From a virus, in IMG/VR virus record IMGVR_UViG_3300036846_001055, positions 1-39,250 of that record: a stretch of 39,250 bases of DNA; one strand, 5' to 3'. Made by a program: the position numbers and the translations under genes. Of the stretch, positions 6,996 to 36,361 are shown one piece after another (the stretch's first letter is position 1; every line of letters starts with the position of its first letter). The notes under the pieces are model-generated. The model did no database searches. It saw nothing but the letters and a program-made list of their open reading frames with translations, and had not been told where the DNA came from.

Positions 6996-7291
6996 TGAGC
7001 CTGGTGTTCAACACCTGGGTCGAAACTGACGGATGCGGAGCCATGTCTCTGGTCTTGCTTGACAATATGGAGCGGCTGATCCCTACGGCGATCAATACGC
7101 TGCCCCAGATCAGCCATACGCCCTATGGCGGCTTGTGCGAGCTGATCGTCAATGGCGTCACCTTCACCACTGTCGACGGCTCATTCCACGTCGACACTAA
7201 TCGCAACGTCTATTGGACATCTCCCGACATTGCCGTCGTGCCGTCCGACATGGTCATCGCGGTCTACAGCTATATGGGGTCGCCGTCATGA
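6995..7291 (+). CDS. 98-aa putative virion protein, unknown
   Basis: The product overlaps the adaptor stop by 1 base and the next start by 4. It appears beta-rich: LIVNGVTFTTVDGSFHVDTN, then NVYWTSPDIAVVPSDMV and AVYSYMG. No family recognised. A small beta protein here could be a tail or neck component. Confidence 0.7.
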   Translation: MSLVFNTWVETDGCGAMSLVLLDNMERLIPTAINTLPQISHTPYGGLCELIVNGVTFTTVDGSFHVDTNRNVYWTSPDIAVVPSDMVIAVYSYMGSPS

Positions 7292-9819
7292 ACATCATGA
7301 AATGGCTTTGTGCCTGGTTCGTTCCCGTACTGTTCATAGCTGTTACAACTTTTACAGTCGGGGCTCAGGCGCAGACCACATCGAACAATCCTTCGACCGC
7401 GAAGATGGGCATCGATCACACCAGCGATCCAGAGCCGGTGTTTGTGCAGGACGCTTCCAGGATCTGGGCGCAGATGGGTTCGGTCAACAAGACCACCCAC
7501 ACCTTCACCCCGGTCGGCGGCGCGTCAGGCGGCGGTGGCGGCGGCGGCGGATTATCGGAAGGGCCATGGGGCTCGCCGCCGCCTGGTTATGCAACCTACA
7601 TCGGCATTCTGGCCGACCCGTCCGGCAATATGATCGGCCCGAAAGGCTCGATCTGGGGCACGCCGCCAAGCGGCGGCACAGTGCTCGATGTCAACGCCAA
7701 TGTGCTCAACGTCGCGCATATCATTTGCGATTCCGGCTGTAGCGGCGGCACGGGCTCGGGCTCGAATGCTTCGGTCGGCGCGATCCCCGGCACGGCGCCG
7801 ACCTCCGCGACCTATCAGGGCATGCTGGTCAGCGGCGGCGGCATGGTCGGCGTCAGCGGTTCGCCTTGGGGCACCGCGCCGACTGGGCTCAATGTCTTGG
7901 GCGTCAACGCCCAGATCTTAGGGGCGCTGCCCGGATTCGCATCGACGCCGTCGTTCAATTGCGCTTCCGGCTGCACCAGCGGCGGCGGTCCAGTGACTGC
8001 GGCGAGCGGCGCCTATGCCGATGGCGCGCTGATCACCATGGGGACCAAAGCCGACCCGGCCTGGACGACCGGGTCTGGCTCGGAAATCGCGATCTTAAAG
8101 ACGATCGCCGGCTCAGTCGCAGCGCTGCCGCCCAATGCGTCGACCGCCTCCAATCAGACCAGCGGCAGCCAGAAGACCCAGATTGTTGATAGCGGCGGCA
8201 CGGTGATTGGTTCAACCAGCGGCGGCTTTAACGTCAATTGCGTCGCCGGCTGCTCGGGCGGCACCGGAGGCTCGAATGCGTCGGTCGGCGTGGTCTCACC
8301 GCCGGCCCCGGCCCCGACGTCCGCCACCTTCAACGGCATGCTGATCTCCGGCGGCAATATGGTCGGCGCATCCGGCTCGGTCTGGGGAACCGCTCCGACG
8401 ACGCTGAACGTGTTTGGCGTCAACGCCAATGTGCTGTCTTCCGTTCTGCCGCCCAATGCGGCGACCGCGTCCGGTCAACCGACGCTCAACGCCGATGGCG
8501 GCGCTCAGGCTCACATCATGAATTTCCCAGCCACCCAGCCGATCAGCGCGGCTTCACTGCCGCTGCCGGCTGGTGCGGCGAACTCCGCTAATCAGACCAA
8601 CGGCACCCAGCAAACTAAGATTGTCGACGGCACCAATGTCATCGGCGTGACTGGCCATCCTTTGTTGGTCGCTTGTCCCGATGGCACGGCGACCTGTTTC
8701 GGCTCGACCGGCGGCGGTGGCGGCGGCAACGTCAACATCACCCAATGGGCGACTCAGACTGTCGGCAATCCATCGACTTATGGCGTCGCGCCGACCGGCT
8801 TGTTTCCCGGAACGAATGCGTTCGTCACCAATACCGTGGCGATTAGCGCGTCGGCGTTGCCTTTGCCGAATGGCGCGGCGCAAGCTTCACTACAGGCTCC
8901 GATCAACGCTGATAATGGCAGCCAAGTCCATGTGATGAATTTCCCGGCGACGCAGCCGGTGAGCGTAGCGTCACTCCCATTGCCGGCCAATGCGGCGACG
9001 GCCTCAGGACAGCCTGCGATCAACGCTGACGGTGGCTCGCAGGTCCACGTTCAGAACTTTCCGGCGACCCAGGCTGTCTCGCAGGCGGCCTCCTCTGTGG
9101 CTTCTGGGGCCTATGTAGCTGGCGCGATGGCAGATGGGTCGATCGTCACTATGGGGACCCAGGCCGACGCGGCTTGGTCGGGCTCAGGCAGCGGCACGCA
9201 AGTCGCCATCCTCAAAAAGATCGCGACGAATACGACAGGCAGCTCGAGCACTGTGACTCAAGGTCCTCCAGGCACCGCGGCCAATGGCTGGTTCGCCAAG
9301 GTCACTGACGGGACTAATGTGTCTTCGGTCAAGGCGGCGTCGACGCCGCCGGTCGCCGCCGATCCGGCTCAGGTGGTTGCTTTGTCGCCCAATACGCCGG
9401 CGACGGCCTTCGGTGCTCCACCAACGACGACGAGTTTGGGGGCCGGCGGTACGAGCTTGCTTGGCTTTTTGGGCACGCTGACCAATCAAATGGCGAGCAG
9501 CATGGACAGCAATAATAACGCCAGAGTGGTAAGCGCGACCAACGTCACCCCAATCAATTGCTCGGTGAGCGCGACCACGACCGCGGCCAATGCGCCGAAT
9601 TTAGGCACCGCTAATATACACGGCTTCACGGTGACCAACCTCAACACCGCCAACAATGTCGGCATCAATCTGTTCGGCGCAGCGGTGATCGGCACAGCGC
9701 CGACGATCACCCTCAATGCGGCGACCCCGTCTTACACGACGCCAAATGGGTTTGGGGCGAACACCAATCTGAGTATCATTGCTTCGGCTGCAACTTCGGT
9801 GAGCTGCTGGGCATGGTGA
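7288..9819 (+). CDS. Large repeat protein with Sec-type signal peptide
   Basis: The product has 843 residues. The ATG at 7288, in an ATGA overlap, gives a classical signal peptide: MNIMKWLCAWFVPVLFIAVT, then TFTVGAQA and a likely cleavage before QTTS. The rest is Gly/Ser/Thr/Ala-rich and built from imperfect modules: (A) ATY.G.L..GGNM.G..GS.WGT.P...NVLGVNA.VL near 7591, 7810 and 8320; (B) GAYADGA.ITMGTKADPAW near 8010 and 9100; (C) INADGGSQVHVMNFPATQPV near 8480, 8900 and 9020. Modules B and C resemble repeats in phage fibre-like structural proteins. A cleavable export signal is unexpected for a virion protein. It is likely a surface or receptor-contact component. Confidence 0.8.
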   Translation: MNIMKWLCAWFVPVLFIAVTTFTVGAQAQTTSNNPSTAKMGIDHTSDPEPVFVQDASRIWAQMGSVNKTTHTFTPVGGASGGGGGGGGLSEGPWGSPPPGYATYIGILADPSGNMIGPKGSIWGTPPSGGTVLDVNANVLNVAHIICDSGCSGGTGSGSNASVGAIPGTAPTSATYQGMLVSGGGMVGVSGSPWGTAPTGLNVLGVNAQILGALPGFASTPSFNCASGCTSGGGPVTAASGAYADGALITMGTKADPAWTTGSGSEIAILKTIAGSVAALPPNASTASNQTSGSQKTQIVDSGGTVIGSTSGGFNVNCVAGCSGGTGGSNASVGVVSPPAPAPTSATFNGMLISGGNMVGASGSVWGTAPTTLNVFGVNANVLSSVLPPNAATASGQPTLNADGGAQAHIMNFPATQPISAASLPLPAGAANSANQTNGTQQTKIVDGTNVIGVTGHPLLVACPDGTATCFGSTGGGGGGNVNITQWATQTVGNPSTYGVAPTGLFPGTNAFVTNTVAISASALPLPNGAAQASLQAPINADNGSQVHVMNFPATQPVSVASLPLPANAATASGQPAINADGGSQVHVQNFPATQAVSQAASSVASGAYVAGAMADGSIVTMGTQADAAWSGSGSGTQVAILKKIATNTTGSSSTVTQGPPGTAANGWFAKVTDGTNVSSVKAASTPPVAADPAQVVALSPNTPATAFGAPPTTTSLGAGGTSLLGFLGTLTNQMASSMDSNNNARVVSATNVTPINCSVSATTTAANAPNLGTANIHGFTVTNLNTANNVGINLFGAAVIGTAPTITLNAATPSYTTPNGFGANTNLSIIASAATSVSCWAW
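7591..9105 (+). repeat. Imperfect modular repeats within the 7288 gene
   Basis: Three repeat classes alternate. Module A occurs around 7591, 7810 and 8320, with a degenerate copy near 8775; its shared DNA core includes GTCAACGCC at 7689, 7907 and 8419. Module C occurs around 8480, 8900 and 9020 with NFPATQ in each. Copies differ at many synonymous sites, so these are old duplications and not assembly artefacts. Confidence 0.7.
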
Positions 9820-12800
9820 TGCGGGCTTTAGCTTTTCTCGCCGGTTTGCTGTTCTGCACTCAGGTTTTCGCTCAGGCGGGCGCGCCTGGGTTAGGATCGA
9901 TCGGTCGTTCTGGCCTAGCTCCTTCGAAGGTCGTTGGGCCGCCGCCGACCGCGACGACCTATTACGTCTCGACAAGCGGTCTCGACACCAACGACGGCCT
10001 ATCGACGTCGACCCCGTGGCAAACGATCGGCAAGGTCAATGGCCGCACTTATGCCCCAGGAACGACCATCCTGTTCAACGGCGGTCAGACGTTTTCCGGC
10101 GGGCTTAATTTCACTGCCAGCTCTTGGAGCGGCGCGACTTTAGCGACGCCGATTACCGTTGGCAGCTATGGCACGGGCAACGCGACGATCTCGTCTGGCA
10201 CAGCGTCCGGCCTTACCGTTACGAATAACGCCGGATTTGTTGCTCAAGATCTCATATTCGTCGGCGCTGGTGCGACCAGTCACATAGATGGGATTTTCAT
10301 AAACAATAGTCAGGCTGGAAATACAAAGCTGTCTGGCATTAAATTGCAGCGGCTCGATGTGAGCGCTTATGGTTCGAGCGGGGTCCTGGTGAAGGGGAGC
10401 GCCGGAACCTCTGGCTTTAGCAATGTGACCATTTCCTATGTCGTGTCGCACGGCAATACGTTTTGGTATGCAGGAGGGCTGGGATCGGCTGGGATCAACG
10501 TTAGCAGTCCGAGTAGTGGGTGGACGTTTGGATCATCCACCCCTAGCCATACGAATGTCACGATTGATCACTGTACCGTATACGGCAATAATGGTATTTC
10601 GAGCTCGACCAATTGGACCGGATCCGGAATTTATGTTGCTGAGACCGGCACCGGAACGATCAGCAACAACTTAGCTTACAATAACGGGACCAGCGGACCA
10701 AGTTCTGTTGCTATTTGGGCGGAGGATTCGAGCAACATAACAGTTCAAGATAATGAGGCTTATGGACAGGGAACTTTCAATAATTTATTTGGCACTGGCT
10801 TCGTTTTAAGCGGCGGAATAATAAACTCTGTTGTGCAATACAATTACAGCCACGATAATTTTGGCCCTGGGTTTATGGTGGCTGCTTATTCAAACGGCTC
10901 CCCGCCACTAGCCGAAAGTGATAGTGACATTGTTCGATTTAATGTTAGCCAAGATGATGTTACCTCATCAGCGCCGAATACGCCTGCTAGCTTTGTCATT
11001 TACAATGACGGAACGGCTGGAGATGGCGGTATATCAAATCTTCAGGTTTACAATAACACGATTTATCAGTCTCATGCCGGTATGGCTATTTTGGCGACAG
11101 GCGGCGCTACGCCGTCGGATATTTCTGGGTTTTTAAGTAATAATATTTACTATACGACTGGGACCAATCCGTTCGCCATCAATTATTCCACTGGCGCAGC
11201 GACGCCGCTCACCTGGGTCGGCAATAATTATTACAACACAACTGGGGCATTCTCCTTAACCAACGGTGCGACGACCTATACCAGTCTCGCGTCCTTTCAG
11301 GCGGCGGGTTACGAGAAGGTTGGCTCGACTCCGGTCGGCACCACAGCGAATCCGCAGCTCACCACGCCTGGCGGCGGCTTAACGACCAATACGACGCCCG
11401 GAGATCCTTCGACTCAAGCTTTGGCTTATAAGCTGCTCGCTGGTTCGCCGATGCTTGGCGCCGGGCAGACGATCGCCTCACCTGGCTCGCAGGATTTTTT
11501 CAACAATACGTTGCCGGGCTCGAACAGCATCGGGGCTGACCAAAGCAGCCCGGTGTCTGTGGCGAATATGATCACGCCCCTTCTAGGCTCGACCCTGCCA
11601 ATAACAAGCGGCACGGCTACTGAATACACGACAGGGCAGCCAGCCTTAGGCCAAAACACTACGACCACGACCTCAACTAGAAAAGTCCCTATTCCGATCG
11701 CCGGAACGTTGAGCGGCTTGGCGGCAGGGATGAATGCGCCATTCACGACCGCGGCTATTTTCTCTTACCACAACGGCGCGCAAGGCACGTTGACGTGCAA
11801 TTTCTCCGCATCTCAATTTTGCAATTCAGGCTCGGCGACTGAGCATTATGCTCAGGGCGATTTGCTCAATTGGCAATGGGTTCCAGGCGGGACATGGGCG
11901 CAGACCTCTGGCCTTCCAATGCTGGTGAGCGCTCTGTTTCAAGCTGATTCAGGATCATCCACAGGGATGATTCTGTCAGGAAGTCAAACCTCTGGCACGA
12001 ACGGCGCTACCGTACATGTTTATCAGGGGTTTGGTTTTACAATAGCCAATAACACTCAGGCCACCGATCTTTTAGCCTCAACTTTAATGCCCGCTGCCGG
12101 AACCATATCGGGTTTGTATGTTCTTCCGAACGCCAGTGAGAGCGCGACTAACCCGCATACTTACACATTAATCAAGAATGGAACAGCGACGGGAATTTCA
12201 TGCACGGCCAACACGACAACCGTGACGGCTGGATGCTGCACGAATGCTGGCGGGGTCGGTAATATTGGCGGAGTGACGGCGGCGGCTTGTACAGCGGCGA
12301 CGGCGGTTTCGATTGCGGTTGGAGATACGATCTCGCTCGATATCGGCTGCCCGTCTGCGGCTTGTAACAGTGTATCGCCCGGCGCGTCAGTCCAATGGAA
12401 CCCAACAACGCCGGGGCAAGCCATTCTCGCTGTGTCAGGGGCCGGCAACTTAAATGTTGCTTCTACTACATATACTCTTGGTTTGTCTGATAATACATCA
12501 TTTTCCAATACGGAGACTAATTGGCAATTGGTTCCTAAAGTCGCCAGTACGATGACCTTGAGCAAGACAATGTTTTGCACCGTGGGGAATCCCGGAACGA
12601 CTCCAGTGCGAACAGTGAATGTGAGGTACGCGACGACGCAGGTTGCGCCGACGACCAACAGTCCAGTCACTCTTTCGGTCGGCACGGGGCAGGCTTGTCC
12701 GGGCGCGAATAGCGGCGTCTTGCTTGGCGGCAACCAGGATACGACACATTTAATTTCGCTCAATGCTGGATCTACAGTTGACTATAGTCAATCGTTTACT

Positions 12801-12857
12801 GGAGCCCCAGCCAATGCCACGAACTACAAATTCAGCTCAGTCGCGACGGTGCCATGA
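9819..12857 (+). CDS. Signal-peptide beta-helix protein with jelly-roll-like C-terminal repeats
   Basis: The product has 1012 residues. ATG at 9819 (TGATG overlap) or 9813; 9819 gives MRALAFLAGLLFCTQVFA, matching the next gene's MKALAFLLALIAFAAG. Residues about 45-580 form a right-handed parallel beta-helix (YYVSTSGLDTNDG..TPWQTI, many short N-rich turns, ending LLAGSPMLGAGQTI), a fold typical of polysaccharide depolymerases and other surface-sugar enzymes. Residues about 620-1012 contain two or three repeated beta-sandwich-like units with AG(T)LSGL...G and SVGTGQAC.G patterns. Around 10230-11160 base composition is markedly more AT-rich than the flanking genes, suggesting a transferred cassette. 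The catalytic site cannot be named from sequence alone. Confidence 0.82.
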   Translation: MRALAFLAGLLFCTQVFAQAGAPGLGSIGRSGLAPSKVVGPPPTATTYYVSTSGLDTNDGLSTSTPWQTIGKVNGRTYAPGTTILFNGGQTFSGGLNFTASSWSGATLATPITVGSYGTGNATISSGTASGLTVTNNAGFVAQDLIFVGAGATSHIDGIFINNSQAGNTKLSGIKLQRLDVSAYGSSGVLVKGSAGTSGFSNVTISYVVSHGNTFWYAGGLGSAGINVSSPSSGWTFGSSTPSHTNVTIDHCTVYGNNGISSSTNWTGSGIYVAETGTGTISNNLAYNNGTSGPSSVAIWAEDSSNITVQDNEAYGQGTFNNLFGTGFVLSGGIINSVVQYNYSHDNFGPGFMVAAYSNGSPPLAESDSDIVRFNVSQDDVTSSAPNTPASFVIYNDGTAGDGGISNLQVYNNTIYQSHAGMAILATGGATPSDISGFLSNNIYYTTGTNPFAINYSTGAATPLTWVGNNYYNTTGAFSLTNGATTYTSLASFQAAGYEKVGSTPVGTTANPQLTTPGGGLTTNTTPGDPSTQALAYKLLAGSPMLGAGQTIASPGSQDFFNNTLPGSNSIGADQSSPVSVANMITPLLGSTLPITSGTATEYTTGQPALGQNTTTTTSTRKVPIPIAGTLSGLAAGMNAPFTTAAIFSYHNGAQGTLTCNFSASQFCNSGSATEHYAQGDLLNWQWVPGGTWAQTSGLPMLVSALFQADSGSSTGMILSGSQTSGTNGATVHVYQGFGFTIANNTQATDLLASTLMPAAGTISGLYVLPNASESATNPHTYTLIKNGTATGISCTANTTTVTAGCCTNAGGVGNIGGVTAAACTAATAVSIAVGDTISLDIGCPSAACNSVSPGASVQWNPTTPGQAILAVSGAGNLNVASTTYTLGLSDNTSFSNTETNWQLVPKVASTMTLSKTMFCTVGNPGTTPVRTVNVRYATTQVAPTTNSPVTLSVGTGQACPGANSGVLLGGNQDTTHLISLNAGSTVDYSQSFTGAPANATNYKFSSVATVP

Positions 12858-15800
12858 AAGCGCTTGCCTTCCTTTTAGCTCTGATCGCCTTCGCAGCGGG
12901 CTGTGACGCTAGCTTTGCCTTGCTGCTACGCGGCAATGGTTCGACTGGCGGAGGTGGAACTGGTCCGCCGCCGGCTGGCGCGCCGGTGAGTGTGGAAATT
13001 CCACAGATCGGCGGGTTAGATTACCCTCCAGCCGGCAGTACGGTGACGTTGACCGCGCAGCCGGGAACTTGGACGAACAGTCCGACAAGCCACACCTATT
13101 CGTGGCACAAGCCGGATGGCACGGTGCTCGGCACTGGTACGAGCTTAACCCTGACGACGCCGGGCGCAGTCGGCACGATCGTTGAGCTTGATGATACAGC
13201 GACCAACGCGAGCGGCTCTGCGACGCGCACGAGCCACTGGTTCGGTCCGATTGCGTCTTCGGCGCCGGTTGGGCCCACGGAATGGGAGGTCCCCGGCAAT
13301 GGGGCTACGCAGTGTGATATTAGCCGCAGCACAGATGGTTCAAATTATCACTATGGCTGCGGTCCAACATCTCTGCCGACTTCGCCCGCGCGTTTCATCG
13401 AGAATATGCATGCGGTCTTTCCTGGCTGCACGATCCCGCCACAGTCGCCTAACTTGAGCGCTGGCCATCTGTGGTATTTCGATCCGATTAAAGGGAAGAC
13501 CCAAGCGAATGGTGGCAACGGCAGTTTAGCAAGTCCGTACAAAGACATCGCGGCGCTGACCACAGACATGACCGGTTCGGGTTATGCCTCTTCTCCCCTG
13601 TTCGGCGTTGGCGGGACTACGGTAATCCATCCGGGCGACACGATCTACATCGAACCGGGCGACGCCACGCATCCGGTTGGCTCGCTTAGTTTTACCGGCG
13701 GCCTTGGCTATAGCACGAGCGACGGCACGCAAAGCGGCACAACAGCTTTCACCTGGATCATGGGTGATCCCGCCGCCGCATCCAAGCCGGTGATAAACCA
13801 AATCACTTACACCGGCGGAGCGATAGGATTTATTTACCAGCATATAGCTGTAGAGCCGCCCACCGTGGGGGCATCGCGAAACGCTATAGTTTTCACCGGC
13901 GCAAGCAGCGCGATAGATAAGGACATTTATTTAGAGGATATAAGCATAAATGGATGGCCGGGGCACGCCAATGATCCGTGGGAGCCGTCACATTGGCCGA
14001 ACAGCGGAGGCAGCTCTGACGGCCGGGCGACTACGGGCAGCCCTGGGTTGTCGCAAAGCTTCGGTCAGGACATTCCGTCATTCAGCGCCACTATGGCGTT
14101 GCATGCGACAACGGTGACCACTTCCGCCGGAGTGAAGGTAGGGAATTATATTTGGTCAGCCAATTCCTGGCAAACGAACGGAAGCGCGACCCCGACCTCT
14201 CATCCAACCGGAATCCCAAATGGGACTGTGGTAAAGAGCATCTCCGGGACGACGGTTACTCTAGGCCCGTGCGATCCGGTCGCCGATGCCGACACTGGCT
14301 GCCCGACATCCAATTACCCAGGGTTGTCCACCAACATTCCCGGCTGCGATCCGCTCACTTCTTACAACGTTGGCTTCGGTGGCGGCACCGCCGGCGGCTG
14401 CGGCGGCTCACCCGTCGCCTGGAACGGCGCGACGCGCGCCATCAGCGGCGAGAACCTTCAATATAGCGATCGCATGGTGATTACCCCGGCGGGGTATTAT
14501 AGTCCGTGGGATTATGGTTCTGGCACATATTTCGGTGTCTGGATTAACGGTGTTGTGGATTCATCAGGAGCATTTGATCAGACGAATAGTCCAAATATTA
14601 TTACGAAATCAAAATGCTTTTCTATCAAAGATAGCTGGTTTCGCAATGTTAACGATGCCGTTAATATTTCCCGTACGACCAACACCGTATTCTACAACAA
14701 TCGAGTTAAATTTGTGGCTCAAGATGCGTTTGAGGTGTGGTCATCTCACCGCGTTTGGGTCATCCACAATCTAATAACCGATTCCACCGTCACCTGGGGG
14801 CACCAGGATTCCATTCAATTCGCCAATTCAGGCAGTCCTGCATATCTAAAGTTTTGGTATAATTCGGCTGCGATTGAGAATGAGATCGTTCAATTTACCG
14901 ACTATACTAACTATTATCCACGTCAATGGCAAGCGCCTATAATGACCGACCTTAGTTGGTGGGGTACGTATGTTGCAGATAATGTCGTAATTGCTAGGAC
15001 CAACGGCCTTCAGATAATGGGCCGGTGGAATGTGGTCGCCAATAATGATGTGTTTGGGCAGACGGCTTATGTTGGGTATCAGAAAAAGGACATCCTTAAG
15101 CCGCCGACCAATAACAGCCCAGACGCTCAAGATATGATCCCGGTTCATTCTCTTCTGGCTAATAATCTGGCCAATGGGAGCGGACGCAACCCGATCAACA
15201 ACGCTTCCTCTCAAGGAGCGAACATAGGTTGCAACCAGACAACTGGTGATTTGGACACCATACTAACAAATATTAGCTTACCCTACGTTAACTCTGGTGG
15301 GGTAGGCGGCAGCAATCTTAATTATCATTGTTTTCGCTATGAGACGAGAACGGACGATGTGCTGGGTAACGCAAATATAGGTGAATTTGAAGGCTTAAGT
15401 AATTGGACTGGTGGCGCAGCTTCAGATTGGCGGTCGGACATATCTGGGGTGTCGCCGCTTCTTATAGGCTACGATCCCCAGCCGCTTCCGACAGCCGGTC
15501 AGCCTGGCTACGGATTGTGGACGGATGGGATGTGGCTCACTTGTCTGCAAATGTCGATCATTCCATTTGAATGTCCAGCTGGTAGTCAGGGAATCTTAAA
15601 CCCGCGGCCTAATCCTAGTTGGGTGGGTCCGTTTCCATATCATACGCTTGCCGCGTCGGTGACGCGTAATAATCAATTGCCCTCTGGGCAGCCTGACAAT
15701 ACAGTGATACTGAATATCGGAAGTCCCGGCACTGGATCCTGGGTAGCCTGCACTCCTGGTCAACCCCTGCCTTCAAAGGCTTATCCAACATCTACCTGCC

Positions 15801-18586
15801 CGACCACGCCGCAATCTGGCACCACGGTAAACTACGCCGGCGGCGGGCCTAATTGCGCTGGAACCAGTTGCAGCCTTGCCGGGCCATATACGCCGCCTAT
15901 TGTTGGTGGGGGAACCGCTCTCGGGGCGCAGATGCCCCTTGTCGATCTTGACGGCAAGGCCTGGAAGTCGCCGCCTTCGGTTGGGGCCTATGAGGTAGGG
16001 GCAGCCGTAGCGACGGATCCCACCGCCATCGTCATTGCTCCCAGCGGCAGCGATTCCAATCCATGCACCGCGGCCAGTCCGTGTCTGACTCCGGGCAAGG
16101 CTCAGACGGTAGCGAGAGGCGCAAGCGATAAGCTTATTTATGCACGGGCTGGAACTTACTCCAACGTTCTTTTAACTCTGACGACGTCGGATAATGGGGA
16201 GACATGGAGCTATTATCCGCCGGATGGCTACAATAGCGCAATCTTCGATGGCGGAGCTACATCGGCCAACGCAAGCTCCACCACTTGCACCAAGCAGCCG
16301 TTCACGCTTTTGGCGACGAACAATATTACGATTACCGGCTTGACGATTCAGAATTTCCAAGCCTGGGGTATTGGCATCCATGGCGGAGAGACCGATCCGA
16401 ATGGTTGCTTCCCGCAAGCCACCATGGCTGCCGCCAATAACAACTCATTCACCAACAACATTATCCAGAATGGTTACGTTGGCAACAACAATGCCGGTTG
16501 GGCCGGCGGCGGGATTTGGATACAAGGGCAGGTGACAAATCTCACCGTGTCTCACAACGTGGTCCAGAACCAATACGGGTCAGGCATAAGAGCATCTGCT
16601 GATGGCGATGGCGCTTCGCCTAACGACAATCTATCCGGCCTAAGCATTATTAACAACGCCGTCTTGAACACCGACCAGAAGACGGGCGATAACGGGGCAA
16701 TCTACTTCCAAGATCAGACTGGTCCATTGAAGACTGGTGGCGGACCGTCTAATTCGACTAACATCTCTATCAAGAATAACTTCATCCGCGATTATCAAAC
16801 TAACCCGGTCGGCAGTCTCTACAATGGTCAGGCTCCCACTCGCGACGTTGCAATCTACATCGATCGCGGCGGATCAAACGCGACAGTTTCCGGCAACATA
16901 ATCGCCAACACGGCCGGCACTTACGCAGCAGATATCAACAGCTCGACCATTTGGATGAGCACCAATGCGATCTTTCACAGCGGAGCGAACAACACGTTTT
17001 CCGGCAACATCATAGATTTAGGCAACAACGGATGGATCTTCAACGCTATTTATGAGCAATATCAATCGACAGACATCGTCACTGGTAATTCTGTCACCGG
17101 TAATATATTTCTAGGCAAATGGGCTGGCTCTCAGGCGACTGCTGGGTGGGGCCAGAACTGTAATTGTGCTTATTTGCAGGGCGGACCCAGCCCCGCTTCG
17201 GTTAATATTTCCCATAATCTTTATTACGATTACGGCGCGGGAACCATGTCGACTTCCGGCAACGGCATCAGCGACGCTTCGCCGGTTACTGGGACTGATC
17301 CGTTGATTTCAGGCACGACCTACACCCTGTCGAGTAGCAGTCCGGCGCTCGGTTCGCCGGTGAACTTCCCGCCGATCATTGGCGGATGGGGGCCTCCGAG
17401 CTATGTGATCCCCGCGACCGGCACGCCGCCCAGTTCGACCGTGCATAATTATTGGTACGCCGCTACTTCGCCGGAATGCCCATCCTCCAGCGGCTCCGAC
17501 TGCACTGGCTATCCGGCGACGCAGGGTTATGTCCGGGTTTACGACATCGACCAGAACTTCGCGCGGGCAAGCAGTCTCGATTTCAATCTTCCAACCACCG
17601 TTAAGGGGCTGCGCGGCTTGTTCGCCGACTCGACCGGCACGCATATGTATTTCCCCAATTATGGGACGACGAATGTCGGCGCCAACACCACCGGCGCGCG
17701 GCTGATGAGCTGGAATTTGACCTCCGGCTCGGCTGACTATGACGTGTCCTATTCTTTGGCGGCGATCGACCGCGCCTGCCTGTCGGCAGACAACACGACC
17801 ATTTACGCGCCGAGCGGTGAGAATGTGCAGACTGGGGCCTATAATTCTTCCTGGTATGTGATCACCGCCGCCACCGGAGCGCAGACCGGAACCATCGCTT
17901 TGACCAGCGGCGCGGTGCGTCCACACAACACCGAATGCTCAGCGAACAAGATTTACATGGCGGCGGTGGATCTTCACGGCGGCGTGGCTGGAAAGCATAA
18001 CGTGACGATGTACAACACATCGAGCCACGCGCAGACGGTCTGCGGACCATTCACCGCCGGCGATGGGCGGGTACGGCCGTTCGACGTCGATTTCATTCAT
18101 GATCTGGTTTACGTCAACCTGGAGGATTGGATTGGCTTCGCCGTCTGCAACGGCGCGACTGGCGCGGTGCTGTACGATTCGCAAGCGCCACCCAGCTACA
18201 CCCAGCCAGGCACCAGCAATGTGGTGAACTCGCATGGGATCGCGGTCACTCCAGACGGCAACAAGCTTTACGTCGCCGATCCGAATATGGGAGCGGGATC
18301 GAGCACAGCGACCGGCGTTGAAGTGTGGGACGTGTCCGGGGTTAGGACCGGCAGCGCGCCGGTGTACAAGAAATTCATCGCGACTAGCAAAGATACGCAC
18401 ATTTACGACGGTAGAAATCCTGGCTGGATGGACATCACCAGCGATAGCAAATTTCTTGTGGTCGAGACGGGTGAGGTCATTTCGACCGCGACTGACGCGG
18501 TCGTCACTCAGCTTGCCGATCCCAGCCAAAGTGATGGTAATGGGTTGTTTATGCGTACTCGCTATTTCACTCAGGTTACTAAGTAA
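12854..18586 (+). CDS. Giant signal-peptide/lipobox-like protein: Ig-like, two beta-helices, C-terminal beta-propeller
   Basis: The product has 1910 residues. It starts in an ATGA overlap with MKALAFLLALIAFAAGCDAS; FAAGC is lipobox-like, while cleavage after ASFA is also possible. Residues about 45-135 look Ig/PKD-like (VTLTAQPGTWTNSPTSHTYS). A beta-helix spans about 210-1040 and a second about 1055-1510, opening with IVIAPSGSDSNPCTAASPC. From about 1530 to the end is a YVTN/NHL-like beta-propeller: repeated blades such as GIAVTPDGNKLYVADPNMG and VRPFDVDFIHDLVYVNLEDW, with paired cysteines. Part of 14500-15450 is AT-richer than its surroundings. It is likely involved in recognising or degrading surface polymer; whether it is in the virion or exported is open. 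Confidence 0.82.
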   Translation: MKALAFLLALIAFAAGCDASFALLLRGNGSTGGGGTGPPPAGAPVSVEIPQIGGLDYPPAGSTVTLTAQPGTWTNSPTSHTYSWHKPDGTVLGTGTSLTLTTPGAVGTIVELDDTATNASGSATRTSHWFGPIASSAPVGPTEWEVPGNGATQCDISRSTDGSNYHYGCGPTSLPTSPARFIENMHAVFPGCTIPPQSPNLSAGHLWYFDPIKGKTQANGGNGSLASPYKDIAALTTDMTGSGYASSPLFGVGGTTVIHPGDTIYIEPGDATHPVGSLSFTGGLGYSTSDGTQSGTTAFTWIMGDPAAASKPVINQITYTGGAIGFIYQHIAVEPPTVGASRNAIVFTGASSAIDKDIYLEDISINGWPGHANDPWEPSHWPNSGGSSDGRATTGSPGLSQSFGQDIPSFSATMALHATTVTTSAGVKVGNYIWSANSWQTNGSATPTSHPTGIPNGTVVKSISGTTVTLGPCDPVADADTGCPTSNYPGLSTNIPGCDPLTSYNVGFGGGTAGGCGGSPVAWNGATRAISGENLQYSDRMVITPAGYYSPWDYGSGTYFGVWINGVVDSSGAFDQTNSPNIITKSKCFSIKDSWFRNVNDAVNISRTTNTVFYNNRVKFVAQDAFEVWSSHRVWVIHNLITDSTVTWGHQDSIQFANSGSPAYLKFWYNSAAIENEIVQFTDYTNYYPRQWQAPIMTDLSWWGTYVADNVVIARTNGLQIMGRWNVVANNDVFGQTAYVGYQKKDILKPPTNNSPDAQDMIPVHSLLANNLANGSGRNPINNASSQGANIGCNQTTGDLDTILTNISLPYVNSGGVGGSNLNYHCFRYETRTDDVLGNANIGEFEGLSNWTGGAASDWRSDISGVSPLLIGYDPQPLPTAGQPGYGLWTDGMWLTCLQMSIIPFECPAGSQGILNPRPNPSWVGPFPYHTLAASVTRNNQLPSGQPDNTVILNIGSPGTGSWVACTPGQPLPSKAYPTSTCPTTPQSGTTVNYAGGGPNCAGTSCSLAGPYTPPIVGGGTALGAQMPLVDLDGKAWKSPPSVGAYEVGAAVATDPTAIVIAPSGSDSNPCTAASPCLTPGKAQTVARGASDKLIYARAGTYSNVLLTLTTSDNGETWSYYPPDGYNSAIFDGGATSANASSTTCTKQPFTLLATNNITITGLTIQNFQAWGIGIHGGETDPNGCFPQATMAAANNNSFTNNIIQNGYVGNNNAGWAGGGIWIQGQVTNLTVSHNVVQNQYGSGIRASADGDGASPNDNLSGLSIINNAVLNTDQKTGDNGAIYFQDQTGPLKTGGGPSNSTNISIKNNFIRDYQTNPVGSLYNGQAPTRDVAIYIDRGGSNATVSGNIIANTAGTYAADINSSTIWMSTNAIFHSGANNTFSGNIIDLGNNGWIFNAIYEQYQSTDIVTGNSVTGNIFLGKWAGSQATAGWGQNCNCAYLQGGPSPASVNISHNLYYDYGAGTMSTSGNGISDASPVTGTDPLISGTTYTLSSSSPALGSPVNFPPIIGGWGPPSYVIPATGTPPSSTVHNYWYAATSPECPSSSGSDCTGYPATQGYVRVYDIDQNFARASSLDFNLPTTVKGLRGLFADSTGTHMYFPNYGTTNVGANTTGARLMSWNLTSGSADYDVSYSLAAIDRACLSADNTTIYAPSGENVQTGAYNSSWYVITAATGAQTGTIALTSGAVRPHNTECSANKIYMAAVDLHGGVAGKHNVTMYNTSSHAQTVCGPFTAGDGRVRPFDVDFIHDLVYVNLEDWIGFAVCNGATGAVLYDSQAPPSYTQPGTSNVVNSHGIAVTPDGNKLYVADPNMGAGSSTATGVEVWDVSGVRTGSAPVYKKFIATSKDTHIYDGRNPGWMDITSDSKFLVVETGEVISTATDAVVTQLADPSQSDGNGLFMRTRYFTQVTK

Positions 18587-29530: not shown

Positions 29531-30167
29531 CGTAGCGCTCCGTGAGATAGGCGACGCGCTGATCGACCTCCGTGAGAAAGAGTTCAACTTCCTCCGTCAT
29601 CTTGGCGATCACGGCGTCATCGCGCATTAGCCGCTTGCCGAAATAGGTCATGCTGGCGGGAAATTCTGGATTAAACGAAACGAAATCCCACCACTTGCGC
29701 TCGGGCAGGCACGCCAGATTCCAATGCATCTGCCAGAGGTTGTCCTCCGGGATGTCCTCCGCCACCAATGTTTCCTGGTGGACGGCGTATTCCGGACACT
29801 TGATCTCTAATCCGCCGTCATCGCCAATCAGCCCATCCGGCGACGCGCCGCTCATGAGTAAGGTCGGGTGATCGACGAACTCGACCCGCTCGACTTTAAC
29901 GCCTTCTCTCAGTTCATAAGTGGCGCGCGCCCGCGGCTCCAACTCGACGCCCCGCTGCATGGGGCGGGTGACGAAATGGTTGACCTCCCGATTGGTCAGC
30001 CGCTCATAGACCAGCTCTTTGAGATAGCTGGCCCGGTCGGCGTAATAGCCGCCGTTCTTCTGCTTCTTGCAGATATCCTTCATCCGCGACGCCGTGGCTT
30101 TGCCTAAACGGCGCTTGAGATGCTGCGGCGACAATCCGTATTCGGCGACGAAGCTGATGTCGTTCAT
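29520..30167 (-). CDS. YqaJ-type (lambda Red-exo-like) recombination exonuclease
   Basis: The product has 215 residues. Core motifs of the PD-(D/E)XK viral exonuclease family are MQRGVELEPRARATYE (72-85), SPDG with D111, the E121-I-K123 pair in GGLEIKCPE, and LWQMHWNLACLPERKWWDFV. It should resect double-stranded ends 5'-3' to give 3' overhangs for the ERF annealing protein encoded just upstream. Start ATG 30167 overlaps the ERF stop as ATGA. Confidence 0.92.
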   Translation of the reverse strand: MNDISFVAEYGLSPQHLKRRLGKATASRMKDICKKQKNGGYYADRASYLKELVYERLTNREVNHFVTRPMQRGVELEPRARATYELREGVKVERVEFVDHPTLLMSGASPDGLIGDDGGLEIKCPEYAVHQETLVAEDIPEDNLWQMHWNLACLPERKWWDFVSFNPEFPASMTYFGKRLMRDDAVIAKMTEEVELFLTEVDQRVAYLTERYGAA

Positions 30168-30916
30168 TGCTTAGCAATCTTGCTCTTGAGGTTTACGACC
30201 GCTTCTTCGTAGCGCTTGATCTTCATCGCCTCCAGCTTGCAACCTGCCCAAGATTCAATGGTGTCTCGAGTATAGCCAGCCTGTTGCATCAAATCTTGAA
30301 GATGAACCAGCTGATCGGCGTCGATCGTCGGATCGGCGGTCGTATTGTCTATTCCGCCGCGGCCGTCGTCGTCCGTGGTCACTGACAGGCCAAGCGCCAG
30401 CTTAAGCGTGTAGCGCTGCAGATAAGTCGCGCTAGAGCCGATCGCTTGCACCGCATTCTTATTGCCGCTGGTGTCTTCAACGACTTCGAGCGAAGTCTCT
30501 TCCCGATGGCCATGCTTGTGGGTGACGATGCAGGTCACTCTGAGCTTGCCCGGCGCCGGCTGGTCGGACCTGAACCGATAGGTCAGGCCATATTTCTTCA
30601 GGATTGGGTCGACGGCGTCGGTGATCGCGGCGAAATCTTCATAGCGGTAATTGGTGCGGCCCTTTTGGCCGGTGAAATCCACCGAACGATTCTTGACGAT
30701 GTCTGGGAATTCGCCTTTGGCGGCGGACAAAGCGTCATTGAACGCCATTTCTTTGGACTTGTCTTCCCGGCGCTCCAGCATCCTCAGCATGTGGTCGAGC
30801 TTGTCAACATCGACCTTTGGATTGCTAGCGGCTTTGGCGATCAGCGTCATCAGCGGATCGCCTTCGGGTCTGGCGGGCCGCTCAGCCGGAACGATGTCAG
30901 TCGGGTCTTGGTCCAT
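30164..30916 (-). CDS. erf: ERF-family single-strand annealing protein
   Basis: The 250-residue product starts at ATG 30916 with GGAG just upstream; a TTG at 30937 would be in frame but lacks a good site. The ERF core is present: MAFNDALSAAKGEFPDIVKN, GRTNYRYEDFAAITDAVDP, KYGLTYRFRSDQ, HREETSLEVVEDTSGNKNAV and AIGSSATYLQRYTLKLALGL followed by SVTTDDDG. It anneals complementary single strands, probably for genome circularisation or recombination. First gene of the operon with YqaJ, NinB and HNH. Confidence 0.93.
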   Translation of the reverse strand: MDQDPTDIVPAERPARPEGDPLMTLIAKAASNPKVDVDKLDHMLRMLERREDKSKEMAFNDALSAAKGEFPDIVKNRSVDFTGQKGRTNYRYEDFAAITDAVDPILKKYGLTYRFRSDQPAPGKLRVTCIVTHKHGHREETSLEVVEDTSGNKNAVQAIGSSATYLQRYTLKLALGLSVTTDDDGRGGIDNTTADPTIDADQLVHLQDLMQQAGYTRDTIESWAGCKLEAMKIKRYEEAVVNLKSKIAKQ

Positions 30917-30938
30917 GATCGATCTCCATGTTGGCAAG

Positions 30939-30971
30939 CAACATTTGATTGATCGCGATCATGTTGTCAAG
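30939..30971 (-). promoter_or_regulatory. Promoter/operator region upstream of ERF operon
   Basis: On the minus strand GCTTGACAACAT (30972-30961) contains a consensus -35 box TTGACA, the same 12 bases as in the inverted repeat before the helicase gene. An imperfect opposing half-site CAACAT lies at 30939-30944, with the palindrome GATCGCGATC (30951-30960) between. The -10 region at 17 bp spacing is poor (CAAATG), suggesting an activator or a non-standard promoter. The expected start would be near 30935, about 20 bases before the ERF ATG. Confidence 0.55.
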
Positions 30972-30987
30972 CTATTTTTAGAGAGGA

Positions 30988-31028
30988 GAGGCCGGCATTC
31001 ACTGGGGGGTTCGCAAATCGCCGGCCTC
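30988..31028. repeat. 9-bp perfect inverted repeat in ERF/PEP-CTERM gap
   Basis: GAGGCCGGC (30988-30996) and GCCGGCCTC (31020-31028) flank a 23-base loop. There is no T-run on either side, so it is not a standard terminator. The loop begins with ATTCACTGG, part of a box also found at 36370-36378. Confidence 0.5.
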
Positions 31029-31050
31029 CCCCACCCCAAGTCTTCGCCGT

Positions 31051-31710
31051 TCAGGATTGGCGAAGGACCGGGATTCGCTTATAGGCCCTGAGTCCAGCCA
31101 ATAGGCCAAAGCCCGCGATCAACATTGCCCAAGTTGACGGCTCGGGAATGGGGACCACATCGGCCTTGAACTCTCTCAACAGGACATTGGCCTCACAGCC
31201 GCGGCCGCAGCCGCCCGGACCCGTCCCGGCTGGGCCGCCGGTATAGAAGAAGCTGTAGAAGGGGAAGCCGCCGGCCAGATTATGCAGCGCGTCGTCGTGG
31301 CCGTCGATGACCAGCGGCGTCTCTGGCCCGTTGATGAAGTCCGAGCCAAACACCGACCATTTTTCGCCCTGAGTGGTCGAGTTCATGGCGAATTGGAAAT
31401 GGGAGGGATCGTGTAGCTCAGACACGTCAATCTGGATCAGATTCTTGCCGAAAATCTCGTGCTTGCCGCTTGGATCTGAGGCTAGGCCGACGCCTTCCTC
31501 ATCGCCGCCATCGTCTTTGCCGAACAGATGGATCGGGGTGAAATCGGCGGAAAACCCGGTGAGGGTGATGAACTCGCCGCCGGCGAAATAGCTGTGAGAA
31601 TTTCCCAGATCGCCAGTTGGCGAAGTGAAGTTAAAAGTCAGCGTTTCCGCCGCCGCAGCGCCGCTCAGAAGGGCGGCGGCCAACGCCACGCCGAAGAAAG
31701 TGAATTTCAT
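31051..31710 (-). CDS. PEP-CTERM sorting-domain protein
   Basis: The 219-residue product has an N-terminal signal peptide (MKFTFFGVALAAALLSGAAA, cleavage near residue 21) and a classical C-terminal PEP-CTERM signal: PEP at 189-191 in VPIPEPSTWAM, a hydrophobic helix (LIAGFGLLAG) and a basic end (LRAYKR). Such proteins are processed by a host exosortase and delivered to the cell surface or matrix. The middle is a beta-rich, Asp/Gly-rich domain without obvious family; the segment GGCGRGCEAN holds two cysteines. TTGAGG precedes the ATG. A PEP-CTERM protein in a phage is unusual and looks like captured host cargo. Confidence 0.9.
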   Translation of the reverse strand: MKFTFFGVALAAALLSGAAAAETLTFNFTSPTGDLGNSHSYFAGGEFITLTGFSADFTPIHLFGKDDGGDEEGVGLASDPSGKHEIFGKNLIQIDVSELHDPSHFQFAMNSTTQGEKWSVFGSDFINGPETPLVIDGHDDALHNLAGGFPFYSFFYTGGPAGTGPGGCGRGCEANVLLREFKADVVPIPEPSTWAMLIAGFGLLAGLRAYKRIPVLRQS

Positions 31711-31748
31711 TCGAATGCCTCAAGTCTGCCGAGCCCAATCGCCCGAAG

Positions 31749-31777
31749 TTGTCAAGCTTCCATGAATATGCTACGCT
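31749..31777 (+). promoter_or_regulatory. Putative promoter of the XRE gene, possibly leaderless
   Basis: TTGTCA at 31749-31754 and TACGCT at 31772-31777 are separated by 17 bp, a plausible but weak sigma70 pair. The ATG at 31784 follows within 7 bases and no ribosome site is visible, so the mRNA may be leaderless. TTGTCAAGC (31749-31757) and TGTCAAC (31777-31783) match the half-sites in front of the ERF and helicase genes, so autoregulation is plausible. On the opposite strand the same bases give two TTGACA boxes facing the PEP-CTERM gene. Confidence 0.45.
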
Positions 31778-31783
31778 GTCAAC

Positions 31784-32155
31784 ATGGGAAGACAAAGAAA
31801 TCCAAATCAGACGAAGCGCTATAACCGGTTGCGCCGCGAAGGGCTGATCGCCCATCGCATGGCTCAGGGCATTCAGCAAGATACGCTCGCCGAAATGCTC
31901 GGCTGCAGCCGTTATATGGTCACCGCCTGTGAGATTGGCCTACGCGATCCGTCGCTCGAGATGATGATCAAATGGGCCAAGGCGTTGAAGCTCGGCGATC
32001 CGCCGCTCAGCATGTTCGTTGCTCCCGAACTGAGCGCCGAACCGAATCAACCGCCGCCGAACGGGCCCCAGGTCGATGATAGCGGTCCCCTGAATCGCGG
32101 ATCGCCGGCGGCGTTGAACACCGCCGAGCGCGCATTGCCTGATCGCGGCATGTAA
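31784..32155 (+). CDS. XRE-family HTH regulator
   Basis: The product has 123 residues. Residues about 20-70 form an XRE/Cro-CI type helix-turn-helix: LIAHRMAQGIQQDTLAEMLG, CSRYMVTACEIGLRDPSLEM. The C-terminal 50 residues are Pro/Asn-rich and disordered, with no oligomerisation or RecA-cleavage domain. It is the only plus-strand gene in the right arm and its last 109 bases overlap a minus-strand gene tail to tail. It is the likely reader of the TTGTCAAGC half-sites nearby; inference only. Confidence 0.85.
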   Translation: MGRQRNPNQTKRYNRLRREGLIAHRMAQGIQQDTLAEMLGCSRYMVTACEIGLRDPSLEMMIKWAKALKLGDPPLSMFVAPELSAEPNQPPPNGPQVDDSGPLNRGSPAALNTAERALPDRGM

Positions 32156-36314: not shown

Positions 36315-36361
36315 CTTTGCTTGACAACATTGCCTGATCGACCCGATGTTGTCAAGCAAAG
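36315..36361. promoter_or_regulatory. 16-bp perfect inverted repeat (operator) at helicase promoter
   Basis: CTTTGCTTGACAACAT (36315-36330) and ATGTTGTCAAGCAAAG (36346-36361) are perfect reverse complements separated by 15 bp, so arm centres are 31 bp (three helical turns) apart. Each arm contains TTGACA; on the minus strand the arm at 36356-36351 is placed as the -35 of the helicase operon, and the other arm covers the -10/start region, a classic repressor arrangement. The -10 candidate (CAATGT) is weak. Confidence 0.8.

Follow-up and report, generated by a model that had tools for sequence, protein, structure and literature searches.

Whether a phage can use the exosortase of its host to place a protein of its own on the cell surface is the question raised by one small gene of a tailed soil phage. 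The window, meaning the whole stretch of DNA analyzed here, is a 39,250-base virus contig with genes for portal, scaffold, DUF5309-type capsid, tail, ejection, endolysin, primase, helicase, YqaJ nuclease, and ERF proteins, and its source is a genuine tailed phage. No large terminase gene was recognized in the record and the portal open reading frame (ORF) begins at its left edge, so the record is probably incomplete and an integrase may be outside it. There are no tRNA genes in the window, and Rfam gave no match. An earlier note, made from the letters of the DNA, had described a phage-encoded protein with a complete signal peptide and a tail of PEP motif, transmembrane helix, and basic residues, lying beside the phage regulator, and had predicted an exosortase-positive host; it had suggested that such cargo could change the host surface or block superinfection.

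The gene (31051-31710, minus strand) is a complete ORF of 219 codons with an ATG start, and its 219-amino acid product has three parts. Residues 1-21 (31648..31710) are a predicted N-terminal signal peptide, in which MKF is followed by the hydrophobic TFFGVALAAALLSGA (mean Kyte-Doolittle hydropathy 1.86) and by an A-rich cleavage region ahead of E22; by inspection, this N-terminus appears to be a typical signal peptide. Residues 22-188 (31147..31647) are the ectodomain, and residues 189-219 plus the stop codon (31051..31146) are the PEP-CTERM sorting tail, IPEPSTWAMLIAGFGLLAGLRAYKR, with PEP itself at residues 189-191 (31138-31146). The motif is followed by a hydrophobic segment, with a hydropathy maximum of 1.8 at residues 193-207, and then by the basic residues R208, K211, and R212. 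Hydropathy windows above 1.4 are confined to residues 1-24 and 191-210, so there is no third membrane helix.

Three curated profile models recognize the tail: NF035944 (PEPxxWA-CTERM, here with the motif PEPSTWA) scores 36 bits by hmmscan against a cut-off of 35 (38.5 bits in the genome search), TIGR02595 scores 16.7 bits against 16, and Pfam PF07589 scores 26.8 bits against 20.7. The margins over the NF035944 and TIGR02595 cut-offs are narrow, the former being one bit, and the three models concur. The PEPxxWA model has a single match in the whole record and none in 14 control genomes. The NF038126 FxDxF PEP-CTERM family matches the tail only (residues 185-209, 34.1 bits), and a full-length match of at least 50 bits was not reached; apart from the tail, nothing in Pfam, PHROGs, PADLOC, or NCBIfam matches the protein. 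The PEP motif, the hydrophobic helix with its basic cluster, the predicted signal peptide, and the absence of any extra helix mark the product as a PEP-CTERM domain protein. The search with PEP-CTERM models proposed in the earlier note therefore upholds its claim for the tail, and hydropathy and inspection uphold the signal peptide.

The only homologue found for the ectodomain is on a second viral contig (L017), which has the same gene order and a protein 94% identical to that of the window, with the tail kept except for one V/I change. Between the two copies dN is 0.034 and dS is 0.255, and the protein is therefore under purifying selection. The ectodomain used as a query (A1) had no homologue in the scan of genome contigs, on plasmids, or in 385 sampled Alphaproteobacteria, while 398 sampled Pseudomonadota gave matches to the tail only. 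The sole match among the 385 Alphaproteobacteria (L173) was rejected as a chance match to a different protein. A widened viral scan with an alignment (A9) that included two rows composed as degenerate bait, not natural sequences, recovered L017 again and nothing else. The search for homologues in related phages and bacteria called for earlier was thus answered in part, with the L017 copy and its tail on the phage side and no bacterial homologue of the ectodomain. A sister contig (L018), about 90% identical to the window over the aligned stretches, is without the gene; it keeps the divergent promoter region with the upstream element, roughly the final 35 bp of the gene, and the hairpin that follows, and about 150 bp of unrelated sequence replaces the rest. 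Present in the window and L017 and absent from the same place in L018, the gene is accessory phage cargo, as is expected of a moron.

The PEP-CTERM gene is placed between two genes of the phage. Downstream on the same strand is an ERF-family single-strand annealing recombinase (30164..30937, minus strand; PF04404, 8.3e-17), with a probable start codon at the ATG near 30916, and on the other side is a divergent HTH_3 regulator (31784..32155, plus strand; PF01381, 5.6e-8; PHROG transcriptional regulators/repressors). Flanked by phage genes, with this divergent neighbor and nothing to indicate contamination, the gene fits its description as phage-encoded and beside a phage regulator. Four copies of the 9-mer CTTGACAAC are present in the window, where 0.12 would be expected, a count that no shuffle out of 100 attained. 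One copy precedes the PEP-CTERM gene, one precedes ERF, and the other two are at the helicase gene. The first site belongs to an operator/promoter-like element, GCTTGACAACTT, with a -35-like TTGACA about 40 bp upstream of the PEP-CTERM start codon (31746..31757, minus strand). The same element is found upstream of ERF (30961..30972, minus strand), and the fullest copy, at the helicase gene, is a 12-bp perfect inverted repeat, GCTTGACAACAT...ATGTTGTCAAGC (36319..36357, no strand assigned); the second arm is partial at ERF and poor at the PEP-CTERM gene. The sites are conserved in L017, and in L018, which has lost the gene, the PEP-side copy is CCTGACAAC. We infer that the element is an operator overlapping a -35 box and bound by a regulator of the phage, for which the adjacent HTH_3 protein is the likeliest candidate. 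A promoter consensus scan found no good promoter at the PEP-CTERM gene. Early expression of the gene is probable, since ERF and the helicase gene carry this rare element too. Between the PEP-CTERM gene and ERF is a conserved hairpin (30978..31039, minus strand; -40.2 kcal/mol for the 86-nt stretch, z -3.65), kept in both L017 and L018; it has no clear T-run and could be a terminator, a processing site or signal, or an attenuator. Together, the operator-like element and the hairpin suggest that the gene may be a near-complete cassette.

Phages related by capsid or ERF were surveyed by searching whole records with PF07589. Tails were found in 19 of 43 records overall, in 13 of 37 when the six found via the PEP-CTERM query itself were left out, and in 10 of the 17 capsid relatives of at least 30 kb. 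The ectodomains cluster into four groups, A (the window and L017), B, C/D, and E, with no between-group similarity at E 1e-3; the tail is common to all, and selection therefore acts on the sorting signal. A scan of viral contigs gave 47 loci for group B and at least 80 for group C, the weakest of the latter matching by the tail only and more than 50 at full length, and about 100 uncultivated viral contigs carry group B or C ectodomains with the tail kept. When 99 group B and C ORFs were extended to stop codons and tested by regular expression and hydropathy, 97 proved to have kept the PEP-like motif, the helix, and the basic end. The fetched flank contains core genes of the phage group to which the window belongs at 22 of 47 group B loci and 29 of 79 group C loci. 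Other loci have different phage genes, such as terminase or primase-helicase, so the cargo is not tied to one phage lineage, a conclusion to be taken with care because short flanks hide core genes. Among isolate phages, 50,697 phage records had no match to the four queries or to the generic tail in a tblastn search, which may miss short tails.

Four of the related phages (L003, L004, L005, and L007, in records G003, G004, G005, and G007) have two PEP-CTERM genes side by side, and in G004, G005, and G007 the paired genes have ectodomains of differing groups (D and E).

What the sequence shows, namely a conserved accessory gene with its tail, a regulatory element common to other phage genes, and the recurrence of such proteins in many phages, is the basis for a reading judged rather probable, in which the gene is an accessory phage moron whose secreted protein borrows the host exosortase for placement on the cell surface. 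In the model proposed by Haft, EpsH/exosortase processes the PEP-CTERM tail on the outer side of the inner membrane (PMC1569441). The phage gene would be switched on with the phage early genes through the common operator/promoter element. Following the PEP-CTERM/exosortase model, the Sec signal peptide would carry the protein across the inner membrane, the tail helix would hold it in that membrane, its PEP motif facing the periplasm, and the host exosortase would recognize and cleave the tail and hand the ectodomain to the cell surface or exopolysaccharide matrix. The added surface protein might then alter the dealings of the infected cell with phages or neighbors, for which glycan receptor shielding or altered matrix or aggregation would be the most likely route.

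It is possible, if doubtful, that the gene is instead lysogenic conversion cargo, expressed from the prophage and of benefit to the lysogen, for example in its biofilm or matrix or in making it resistant to other phages. Nine of 33 records had an integrase, and the accessory distribution fits. Eight integrases from phage records were compared with 91 group B and C loci, a comparison that covers the queried integrase types within the fetched flank; 13 loci had an integrase, and in all 13 it is the convergent 3' neighbor of the PEP-CTERM gene, 38-830 bp away, although some of these loci overlap or are near duplicates and are not 13 independent events. This integrase-adjacent 3' position, beside attP, is the usual place of lysogenic conversion genes. 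The window record, however, is without a tyrosine integrase, and a role in lysogeny is therefore unsupported for its phage, although the record also has no recognized terminase and an integrase may lie beyond its ends. A further argument against conversion cargo is that the regulatory element is common to early replication and recombination genes, which a lysogenic repressor should silence.

Two observations concern the integrase-side arrangement of other contigs. A tRNA-Tyr gene is found directly 3' of a group C PEP-CTERM gene (L231, 10479-10562) and may be an attachment site or a phage tRNA. A 52-kb contig (G041, L162-L164) with two variants of the integrase and PEP-CTERM gene was considered as tandem prophages, but its ends repeat each other at 75-91%; two strain variants assembled together are the likelier explanation, and the contig was left out of the evidence.

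None of 23 phage records has an exosortase, so a borrowed enzyme would need to be that of the host. Exosortase (PF09721) is present in 51 of 385 sampled Alphaproteobacteria. PEPxxWA tails were detected in at least five of these 385 genomes, a lower bound since no more than 21 candidates were scored per genome, and all five detected are within the 51 exosortase-positive genomes, which would have a probability of about 4e-5 by chance if the genomes are independent. Because the motif was detected, among the sampled Alphaproteobacteria, in exosortase-positive genomes alone, the tail would predict an exosortase-positive host. The prediction in the earlier note is supported to the extent of this association among bacteria, and for the phage's own host the result is consistent with it. 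The nearest capsid in a named phage is that of Ochrobactrum phage OH (65%), and capsid relatives are present in prophage-like regions of an Enterovirga genome and a Caulobacteraceae metagenome-assembled genome (MAG) (47-49%). These point to a host within the Alphaproteobacteria, and the relatives appear too distant to name it. When these two genomes were checked for exosortase, as the earlier note had advised for candidate hosts, the Caulobacteraceae MAG had it and the Enterovirga genome did not. A search of 288 genomes from Enterovirga's order, run without a positive control, did not recover group B.

The same association bears on a second alternative, that the protein is membrane-anchored or periplasmic, acting for example in superinfection exclusion or lysis timing, with the C-terminal helix as an anchor only, the exosortase unused, and the PEP likeness due to descent from a host gene. 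Small membrane-anchored exclusion proteins are often phage-encoded, a few members of the phage PEP-CTERM set show drift of the PEP motif to PEL, PEA, or PET, and the exosortase of the host is a prediction. An anchor alone, however, would not require PEP-x-x-W-A, which most members keep across unrelated ectodomains, and in the sampled Alphaproteobacteria the motif was detected in no genome without an exosortase. An anchor without sorting is accordingly regarded as unlikely, and delivery by a host exosortase continues to be the preferred reading.

The other ectodomain groups bear on the origin of these proteins and on what a delivered ectodomain might do. Group B matches NF038126 at full length with 48.8 bits, under the cut-off of 50. 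For group C, an exosortase-positive alphaproteobacterial genome encodes a homologue that is full-length and has a PEP-CTERM tail of its own. The simple reading is that groups B and C were captured from hosts as genes for surface proteins; the searches gave no source for group A. A confident structure prediction for the group C ectodomain (pLDDT 95) gives an all-beta sandwich, and VIA-align places among its best solved neighbors Bd1399 of Bdellovibrio (Z 9.1), surface glycan-binding protein B (8.9), CBM61 (8.3), tailspike domains (8.1), and CBM16 (7.5). Carbohydrate binding by this predicted fold is a lead, given that Z scores of 7-9 can reflect the common sandwich. The model of the window (group A) ectodomain, built from two sequences, has a pLDDT of 29 and was not used; since it also has no relatives beyond L017, the glycan-binding idea comes from group C, which is unrelated to the window ectodomain. 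PepA, a PEP-CTERM protein of Aquincola (gene pepA), influences the formation of flocs and the fraction of bound polymers (PMC9850573). By analogy, an effect on the surface or matrix of the infected cell is favored, and receptor shielding and changed aggregation might be the main options.

The resemblance of group C to beta-sandwich domains found in tailspikes could also suggest a virion or tail component that contacts the host surface matrix and not an exported host-modifying protein, but a signal peptide and membrane tail would divert the protein from the cytoplasmic assembly site and the gene is among early genes or beside an integrase, apart from the tail genes, so this is very improbable. 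Fusion of a bacterial PEP-CTERM gene to phage sequence, by host contamination or as an assembly artifact, is rejected as having almost no chance of being correct: IMG/VR matches that are similar in the tail only (L008, L010, and L011) appear to resemble bacterial genes in or beside proviral contigs, but the window gene is flanked by phage genes on both sides in an order identical in L017, is phage-like in composition (59.2% G+C against 59.6% across the window), is integrated into the phage's own regulatory element, and has related arrangements in tens of independent contigs. The earlier note would have abandoned its reading had no model matched the tail, or had relatives been without it and the region been contamination; the tail was found and contamination is contradicted. 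As a whole its interpretation is partly supported, and the recurrence of such proteins in related and unrelated soil phages goes beyond what it described.

Phage morons and conversion genes that alter the host surface are known, such as O-antigen modifying or exclusion genes. The gene described here is similar to these in being accessory, with its own upstream element, a downstream hairpin, and in 13 relatives an integrase neighbor, but those already known work through lipoprotein signals, membrane anchors, or enzymes. The motif PEPSTWA is that of the NF035944 PEPxxWA-CTERM proteins, while the window ectodomain is unrelated to any curated subfamily; similarity to the NF038126 FxDxF proteins is full-length for group B of the related phages and in the tail only for the window protein. 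The PEP-CTERM/exosortase (EpsH) system (Haft 2006, PMC1569441) has the same signal peptide, PEP motif, transmembrane helix, basic cluster, and low ectodomain homology, but here the protein is encoded by a phage without its own exosortase, so the enzyme would be that of the host. Nothing on phage-encoded PEP-CTERM or exosortase cargo was found in open papers; PEP-CTERM proteins and phage morons are each already known, and use of the exosortase route by phages was not found described.

The recurrence of the tail suggests that phages may repeatedly use the exosortase route to change the surface of infected cells. As a general strategy of soil phages, it can be tentatively proposed, with more reservation than conviction, that the host exosortase is supplied with unrelated, mostly beta-sandwich, and possibly glycan-binding ectodomains on one tail, in early infection or from a prophage, and that these cover the cell or modify its exopolysaccharide matrix, so that other phages are blocked or aggregation is controlled. 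If true, a bacterial surface-sorting pathway would be a phage delivery route, and viruses would be linked to the exopolysaccharide and biofilm traits of soil bacteria. The PEP-CTERM tail would then be a sequence handle for host-modifying phage cargo in metagenomes, and exosortase-positive hosts could be predicted for uncultured phages. Such phages should also depend on the host exosortase gene, or their effect should change with it.

Elsewhere in the window, the tail-gene region has two adjoining and very large ORFs (9813-12857 and 12854-18586, of 1014 and 1910 amino acids), with local similarity to ORFs elsewhere in related phages, such as G031 7756-9162 (67%). Another ORF of this region (7213-9819) has internal repeats, seen as repeated blast matches at 7759-7911, 8247-8427, and 8935-9090.
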